IMG/VR virus record: IMGVR_UViG_3300022934_000193
Span: 1-23,179 of that record
DNA length: 23,179 nt
From: a virus
Reading direction: 5' to 3' (one strand)
The notes under the pieces are model-generated. The model was not told the DNA's origin and searched no databases. It saw only the letters and a program-made list of their open reading frames with translations. Shown here in pieces: positions 14,816 to 16,393 of the stretch; position 1 is the first letter of the stretch, and each line of letters starts with the position of its first letter. A program made the translations under genes and the position numbers.

Positions 14816-15739
14816 TTATGCATCTGTGGAGATAAGAACACCACGTGCTTGTTCTACGATAGCCGCGCCGGTGTACGCCGTACCCACTACCTTAGTCAAG
14901 CTATAAGCGGAGTCACGTTCCAGCTCCACAAGTACGGGGGTTCCCGCTGGGCGAATCTCACCGCTTGGGGCCGCAAGTGGGACCGGTGTTCCAAGAGCGT
15001 ATCCAATCGCACCTGCTGAGAACATAGCGCCTTCACGGTTTGCACCATTCTGTGGGCAGAAAGAAGACTTATGGATTTGAACACCCATGAAATCGCCTAC
15101 AAAGCCTTGCCCGAGAGATTTCATTAGCTCGTGGTGTGCTGGGTTGAAAGCGATAGCGTTAGCGGTTTCATTACGGATTGAAGATTGAAGGTCCGCAATC
15201 TGGCGTGGGTGAAGAACTGCGAAAAGCTGGGAAGGGTTATCCGCGATTTCAAGAAGATACAAAGCGTCCATGAAATCATCCACTGACATATCCACACCAC
15301 TAGTTCCAGCGGAAGAAGAGAATCCTGTGAATGTTGCACAAACCATTTCCATGAATCGTGATTCAAAAGCACCCGCCATGGATTCAGCAAGGCGGAACAC
15401 GTCAATATCGTTTCCAAGCTTTGTCAATGCCGCCAAATCTGTGATGTCGTAACGCAAGCCGATTCTTCCCACTGCTATATCTGCTGTAGCCATTGTGAGA
15501 TTGGAAGAAGTGATTTCCGCACCATCCGCTGCGGTATTCATGGCTTCATAGCCATCCAAGCCCGCATAACGAAGTGTCAGGGAATCGGAACCGATTCCCG
15601 CCACATCTCCACCGAAGAGAAGTGCACCAGAGTTACGAATAGAAGCCGCATCATGGAGAAGAGCACGAACTTCATTTTCAATCATTGCATCGAGGCGTAA
15701 GCCCCCTGTATTTAATGCGCTATAATCAATAGTAGCCAT
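14816..15739 (-). CDS. Major capsid protein (HK97-like fold)
   Basis: A 307-residue protein with the order and features of HK97-fold capsid proteins: a helical N-terminus, then the spine helix and beta sheets (FRLAESMAGAFESRFMEMVC, DFMDALYLLEIADNPSQLFA). The C-terminal A-domain is marked by ALGTPVPLAAPSG and LTKVVGTAYTGAAIV. AGGA precedes the ATG. A scaffold gene lies upstream, but I see no maturation protease. Proline and other codons follow a highly expressed pattern (CCA over CCC), unlike most neighbours. It has its own likely promoter and a terminator-like structure on either side. Confidence 0.87.
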   Translation of the reverse strand: MATIDYSALNTGGLRLDAMIENEVRALLHDAASIRNSGALLFGGDVAGIGSDSLTLRYAGLDGYEAMNTAADGAEITSSNLTMATADIAVGRIGLRYDITDLAALTKLGNDIDVFRLAESMAGAFESRFMEMVCATFTGFSSSAGTSGVDMSVDDFMDALYLLEIADNPSQLFAVLHPRQIADLQSSIRNETANAIAFNPAHHELMKSLGQGFVGDFMGVQIHKSSFCPQNGANREGAMFSAGAIGYALGTPVPLAAPSGEIRPAGTPVLVELERDSAYSLTKVVGTAYTGAAIVEQARGVLISTDA

Positions 15740-15818
15740 TTTTTTATCCTATTATATGGTTTTGGGTTATCCGTGGTTCCTTCGTTGTTACGGGTACGAC
15801 CCTAACCACACAATGTCT

Positions 15819-15824
15819 ATTATA
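15819..15824 (-). promoter_or_regulatory. Possible capsid-gene promoter (-10 TATAAT)
   Basis: A perfect TATAAT on the minus strand, 80 nt before the capsid ATG and directly after the DnaA-box array. The -35 at 17 bp is poor, so activity is uncertain; an activator or the DnaA array could help. It would give the capsid gene its own transcript after the upstream terminator. Confidence 0.4.
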
Positions 15825-15838
15825 CAAGGTTTTTGTAA

Positions 15839-15994
15839 CCTGTGTATAACCTGTGTATAACTTTTTTTCATAGCCTGTGAATAACTTGTGTATAACTTTT
15901 TGGAATCGGCTTTGTGGCTATCTGGAAGCGTGGTTTGGCCTGTGAATAACTTGTGGATAACTTTTTCAATAGCCTGTGAATAACTTGTGTATAA
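15839..15994. repeat. Array of eight DnaA-type boxes in four pairs (putative origin)
   Basis: Eight 9-mers of the form TGTGNATAA (TTATNCACA on the minus strand, the DnaA-box consensus) start at 15841, 15852, 15876, 15887, 15941, 15952, 15975 and 15986. Each pair is spaced 11 bp, one helical turn. Pairs begin with CCTG and the first three end with CTTTTT; pair starts lie 35, 65 and 34 bp apart. All boxes point the same way. The array fills the whole gap between the capsid gene's upstream neighbour and the capsid promoter. The box at 15952 is the canonical TTATCCACA. It may be a replication origin or a DnaA-binding regulatory site. Confidence 0.75.
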
Positions 15995-16375
15995 CTATAT
16001 TCCACGCCGTTGGAATAAGTCGATACACTTGGCCACATCTTCCGCTTCTGAATGTTGGGAACCACAAAAGGAAATTATCGCCTTCTTGTTTCTCAAGTTG
16101 GTGATGTTGTCACAAGTTGTCCCACTCACTTCACCGGTGGCGCTATTGGTTTGGGTCATACACATAAGTTCACGACAAAGCCCATCCCCTTTCTTCTCGA
16201 TGAACTTGGGTTCACAAATGGGAAGCACCACATCCAATTTTCCCAGCTCCTTGGCGACGGGGTCGGCGGGAACCACGATGGGAACCGGCGCTTCCTGTGT
16301 TCCCTTTATGAGTCCAAAAGTCAGGGAACCACCCACAATCATTCCACCAATAATCAATCCAATCGTTTCTATCAT
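15995..16375 (-). CDS. Cys-rich membrane-anchored protein (126 aa)
   Basis: I start at ATG 16375, which has AAGGA 7 nt before it (ATG 16381 is too close). One N-terminal membrane segment (about residues 3-23, ETIGLIIGGMIVGGSLTFGL) is followed by a Pro-rich linker and an outer part with six Cys (in ICEP, LCRE, MCMT, TCDN, FCGS, KCID), enough for three disulfides. This suggests a membrane-bound domain on the outer side of the inner membrane. It lies between the fibre terminator and the DnaA array; its stop touches the last box. No family recognised. Superinfection exclusion or a lysis role are possible, not shown. Confidence 0.65.
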   Translation of the reverse strand: MIETIGLIIGGMIVGGSLTFGLIKGTQEAPVPIVVPADPVAKELGKLDVVLPICEPKFIEKKGDGLCRELMCMTQTNSATGEVSGTTCDNITNLRNKKAIISFCGSQHSEAEDVAKCIDLFQRRGI

Positions 16376-16393
16376 TTTCATATCCTTGTAAAT

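Follow-up and report, generated by a model that had tools for sequence, protein, structure and literature searches.

The window analyzed here is the entire 23,179-base IMG/VR record IMGVR_UViG_3300022934_000193, which belongs to a phage family that is uncultured and known from metagenomes. Upstream of its major capsid gene lies an array of eight DnaA-type boxes, and this array ends inside the predicted sigma70-type promoter of that gene. On balance, we think that the array probably controls the capsid promoter through the host replication initiator DnaA, such that DnaA would repress the promoter and titration of DnaA by replicating phage DNA would release it. Phages usually turn on their late genes with activators, antiterminators or sigma factors of their own. 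If our proposal is true, a capsid promoter built from host initiator sites couples virion production to genome copy number via DnaA titration. Searches of the open-access literature brought up no account of DnaA boxes at the capsid promoter of a phage.

The eight boxes are exact matches to TTATNCACA on the minus strand, with starts at positions 15841, 15852, 15876, 15887, 15941, 15952, 15975, and 15986. They form four pairs with a start-to-start distance of 11 bp within each pair, and all point in one direction, that of the late genes. The array spans positions 15841 to 15994 and fills the gap between the two open reading frames that open and close the following list, which runs from high to low coordinates.

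15995-16381, minus strand: open reading frame for a 128-amino-acid protein with a hydrophobic N-terminal segment, the upstream neighbor; no family match found
15975-15994, minus strand: DnaA box pair 4, TTATACACA-AG-TTATTCACA, directly after the stop codon of the upstream open reading frame
15941-15960, minus strand: DnaA box pair 3, TTATCCACA-AG-TTATTCACA
15876-15895, minus strand: DnaA box pair 2, TTATACACA-AG-TTATTCACA
15841-15860, minus strand: DnaA box pair 1, promoter-proximal, TTATACACA-GG-TTATACACA
15841-15846, minus strand: predicted -35 hexamer TACACA, formed by the final 6 nt of the proximal box
15819-15824, minus strand: predicted -10 element TATAAT, 16 bp from the proximal box, read directly and identical in all ten aligned relatives
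14816-15739, minus strand: gene for the major capsid (head) protein, 307 amino acids, downstream of the array; PHROG 544 major head protein, E value 2e-7

The exact matches bear out an original prediction, made from the letters of the window alone, that eight regularly spaced boxes are arranged here in four 11-bp pairs facing the same way. The same prediction placed them in a gap inside the head-gene module; the downstream neighbor is the capsid gene, and the upstream one encodes the 128-residue protein without a family match. Dinucleotide shuffling of the window, repeated 500 times, never yielded a 160-b stretch with more than two same-strand boxes, and 5000 shuffles of the local 290 b likewise gave no more than two. 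From the exact box counts and these shuffles, we rejected a chance origin of the array. The paired pattern did not occur a second time anywhere in the window. Every match in 15 records of relatives fell into one cluster per record.

All eight boxes match TTWTNCACA, the 9-mer consensus of E. coli-type DnaA boxes. Most of the window boxes have A or T at position 5, the canonical TTATCCACA being present only once. In an alignment of ten relatives, box positions 1, 2, 4, and 6 to 9 showed 97% mean pairwise identity, whereas positions 3 and 5 showed 59%, compared with 58% at the fourfold degenerate sites of the capsid gene, and the spacers between boxes were intermediate at 80%. The array as a tandem-repeat relic was rejected, since the fixed positions are conserved far above both spacers and silent sites. 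Over 129 box slots in 11-bp register in the relatives, variation was almost wholly limited to position 3 (A/T) and position 5 (A/T/C), and the two positions were coupled. C occupied position 5 in 22 of 25 TTTT boxes but in only 8 of 99 TTAT boxes (Fisher p = 8e-15), and counting unique 25-mer contexts left the same coupling (15 of 18 versus 8 of 64, p = 3e-8), although these p-values overstate independence because box copies share ancestry. The word TTTTCCACA was found at differing array positions in different relatives.

E. coli DnaA binds TTTT boxes well only when they carry C at position 5 (PMC5835720), and the variation seen here, which is almost wholly at positions 3 and 5 and in which TTTT boxes mostly carry C, agrees with that rule. 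Because the conservation and the coupling of the two positions follow measured DnaA affinity (PMC5835720), the boxes are very probably genuine DnaA boxes, as originally predicted. The array also provides clean natural data on how DnaA recognizes its boxes, since the measured coupling has been kept in it. A different reader, for instance a phage regulator that recognizes a DnaA-like word and uses the boxes as its operators, is very improbable, given that the tolerated positions and their coupling both match DnaA specifically. What speaks for such a protein is a clade with ~56% capsid identity that has a TGACATnTGTCA-like palindrome near the capsid promoter instead of the array, and because of this replacement the regulators at the site may be swappable.

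The link between the array and the promoter is one of geometry. The -35 sequence is supplied by the proximal box itself in the relatives, as TACACA or TTCACA, and the distance from the end of that box to TATAAT is 16 to 18 bp in every one of the 16 array-bearing relatives that a script scored (the distance of 16 in the window, L005, and L006 was read by hand, the script having chosen a later TATAAT there). In array-bearing close relatives, the proximal box, unlike the distal boxes, never has C at position 5. Six relatives (L018 to L022 and L054) carry a reverse exact box, TGTGTATAA, over the -10 element. L012 has retained the proximal boxes and promoter, while the stretch directly preceding its array has been replaced; this locus (G001:23191-23838) has an oppositely directed open reading frame of 215 amino acids between the 128-residue gene and the array. 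A DnaA-titration or replication-timed switch for the capsid promoter was one of the options originally raised for the array, and because the array overlaps the promoter core at a fixed spacing, the sequence evidence supports this option best.

From the DnaA-repressed promoters mioC and dnaA2p, we infer by analogy DnaA binding, repression, and release by titration. DnaA would occupy the tandem boxes up to and over the -35 element, and in some relatives over the -10 element too, and would in this way exclude RNA polymerase from the capsid promoter early in infection. As the genome multiplied, each phage copy would add about eight boxes and host DnaA would be titrated, so that the promoter would open once titration was achieved and capsid synthesis would track genome copy number. 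The sequence thus suggests that shell production is timed by the number of phage genomes soaking up host DnaA. There are ~200 DnaA monomers per origin in E. coli (PMC5835720), and so ~25 phage genomes would offer as many boxes. The E. coli promoters mioC and dnaA2p likewise have several close boxes upstream of and over the promoter, with degenerate boxes among good ones, and relief by titration is documented for them, mioC being a DnaA-repressed promoter that titration relieves (PMC5835720). The present case differs from them in that a phage capsid gene is driven and in that the boxes form a regular 11-bp paired array. We favor a negative sign of control because a promoter core within DnaA boxes is most simply blocked, as at mioC and dnaA2p.

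DnaA is also able to activate promoters (PMC8203912), which weighs against repression, and the array could instead recruit RNA polymerase to a weak promoter, with DnaA as a positive regulator. The imperfect -35 match (TACACA or TTCACA) and the position of the boxes just upstream, which is the classical one for an activator, would suit this explanation, as would the DnaA-stimulated transcriptional activation of the lambda origin that is cited in PMC3985674. In contrast, the coincidence of the proximal box with the -35 element and the box over the -10 element in six relatives favor exclusion of polymerase. We regard activation as a minority possibility, and its probability overlaps that of the preferred explanation. 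DnaA-dependent transcription at the lambda origin likewise involves host DnaA boxes near a phage promoter (PMC3985674), but lambda's sites lie in the replication region, whereas those of the window lie in the structural module.

A search with the capsid protein gave 20 related viral contigs. In 17 of these an array stands at the corresponding site, and the set of TTATNCACA and TTTTCCACA boxes in it differs from contig to contig. Three further array-bearing relatives (L031, L038, and L054) came from a pattern scan, and L024 (54% capsid identity) has no array. A wider search yielded 80 loci, and arrays among close relatives were limited to a clade at ~78% capsid identity and above. A divergent lineage with capsids 35 to 41% identical (L103, L133, L143, L145, L148, and L149) has arrays between the preceding structural gene and the capsid module, and in all of these except L133 we noted by eye a terminator-like hairpin that splits the preceding gene from the array.

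Several of these comparisons weigh against DnaA control of the capsid promoter. L015 and L017, whose upstream regions are identical, have a degenerate pair only, and L210 (75% identity) and the ~56%-identity clade have no array at all, from which it follows that control by the array would be dispensable. In the divergent lineage, the arrays of L103, L143, and L145 precede a DUF5824 gene by 31 to 32 nt and are not at the capsid promoter, and those of L133 and L148 lie upstream of that promoter at a distance of more than 150 b. Because this lineage has such exceptions, tight coupling of array and promoter is characteristic of the close lineage. Moreover, an extended -10 element could by itself account for the TGTGTATAAT overlap.

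That arrays of the divergent lineage lie at varying distances from the capsid promoter would fit a DnaA sink, by which is meant an array that mainly titrates host DnaA and stops initiation on the host chromosome, its siting at the capsid promoter being incidental. Several boxes per genome are cleanly maintained, and in E. coli, DnaA boxes present in multiple copies are known to titrate DnaA (PMC5835720). However, the boxes that predominate are weaker-affinity ones with A or T at position 5, where a sink should favor TTATCCACA, and the promoter spacing is fixed in the close lineage. We therefore consider a sink quite unlikely.

The original prediction also offered the array as the phage replication origin, at which host DnaA would bind the array, melt nearby DNA, and load the replisome. 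Tight same-direction DnaA boxes do resemble bacterial origins, and the divergent lineage retains the array at a similar place. Furthermore, the array is the main and nearly sole iteron-like cluster in the array-bearing genomes that were scanned for exact 9- to 11-mer words (G001 and G003 had no qualifying exact-word cluster, and G004 also has a GC-rich repeat elsewhere). No second iteron cluster was found near the replication genes of array-bearing genomes at this exact-word level, which does not cover degenerate iterons. Against an origin, the change in skew that had been proposed as a check did not appear. There was no change of sign across the array, and left-right differences stayed within the range of array-free relatives; skew is confounded here by the location of the late genes on one strand, and fourfold degenerate sites split at the array likewise gave no sign change.

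Nor does the array have an AT-rich upstream neighbor in the window that exceeds the 99th AT percentile of the genome: per 50 b, the upstream maximum of the AT fraction is 0.64, and the downstream value reaches 0.76 at +84, in the region of the leader and ribosome-binding site. AT-rich stretches near the array reach 0.74 to 0.80 in several relatives. The genes for a VapE-like helicase and primase lie many kilobases away, and that for RusA is likewise not at the array; in near-complete relatives, the early region encodes a VapE-like helicase, together with a primase-like protein in most and RusA in several. Relatives that share the gene plan (~28 to 30 kb) and were searched whole lack the array, in three such relatives the early region has repeats of another kind near VapE, and a fixed promoter spacing is not expected for an origin. 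Taken together, these results make it unlikely that the array is the origin. The other early-region repeats lie at L290:1766-2039 (G021), L276:3052-3301 (G022), and L278:3669-3897 (G023), are spaced by 10 to 11 bp in G021 and G022, and are possibly origins or operators. Clusters of DnaA boxes also make up oriC-type origins and the datA titration locus, but unlike these the window array is tied to a promoter, and no melting region was found beside it in the window.

The presence of such an array within late structural genes had been called unusual, which is partly borne out. Berlinvirus P483 and A7 (T7-like), Klebsiella podophages, and many IMG/VR contigs likewise carry tandem TTATCCACA-type boxes at 11-bp spacing, and arrays of four DnaA boxes are common in phage contigs. 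Those sampled differ from the window array in that they mostly have C at position 5 and that their usual sites are gaps flanked by small or early genes or the vicinity of packaging genes, and within our sample only this phage group has its array at the capsid promoter. A pattern scan of IMG/VR (L083 to L154) yielded at least 120 stretches in phage contigs in which four or more DnaA boxes follow one another every 11 bp. Such arrays often adjoin a gene for an AT-hook-like (RGRPRK) protein that is transcribed away from the array.

Between the promoter and the capsid start, the window contains a second conserved element, which we offer as a lead beside the question of the array.

15774-15808, minus strand: putative conserved leader RNA of ~35 nt, with outer stem GTGGTT/AACCAC, hairpin GGGT-CGT-ACCC, and pseudoknot CGT/ACG

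The hairpin shows covariation, and so does the pseudoknot, which would pair the hairpin loop with a downstream triplet (CGT/ACG, CGC/GCG, and CAC/GTG). Among 32 sequences, pairing holds in 93% of cells, with a covariation score of 0.39, compared with 0.08 or less in slid controls. When the leader is folded by itself, the thermodynamic signal is weak (z score of -1.4) in a program that is blind to the pseudoknot, so that the case for the leader rests on covariation; the length of the outer stem by itself was not above shuffles in most single sequences. The leader precedes the capsid gene down to ~43% capsid identity, with or without an array (it is at the same place in L191 to L270), and its model gave about one match per genome and nothing else in 463 kb, with the exception of L340 and L335. 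In these, L340:5384-5475 holds two tandem copies and L335:3090-3169 holds one full and one weak copy. The leader also stands before likely scaffolding genes in L295:5734-5769, L320:2709-2744 (minus strand), and L322:1248-1283 (minus strand), where the downstream protein is unrelated to the capsid protein described here. By eye, its outer stem overlaps the Shine-Dalgarno sequence (ribosome-binding site) in L320 and L322, which suggests translational control by the leader in these two. Rfam gave no family match, and searches of annotated phages brought up no convincing copy of the leader. If functional, the leader would belong to a class of cis-acting RNA that has not yet been described for phage head genes. 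More speculatively, the capsid operon could be a genome-copy counter made of host parts that needs no phage late activator, with the pseudoknot leader RNA adding a translational checkpoint on the same mRNA; we put this forward as a tentative idea.

In an attempt to assign a host, the best matches of TerL and VapE were only ~25% and 29% identical, respectively, and the lysin showed ~40% identity to those of Bacteroides and crAss-like phages. The capsid gene had no match among annotated phages, a tRNA search of the window found none, and the sole match in genome collections was a short contig of a metagenome-assembled genome, the origin of which is uncertain. Five relatives (G003, G004, G005, G021, and G025) have cos-like terminal direct repeats of 10 to 11 nt. 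The right end of the window is probably a natural genome end, as it resembles the same terminus in the repeat-ended relatives.
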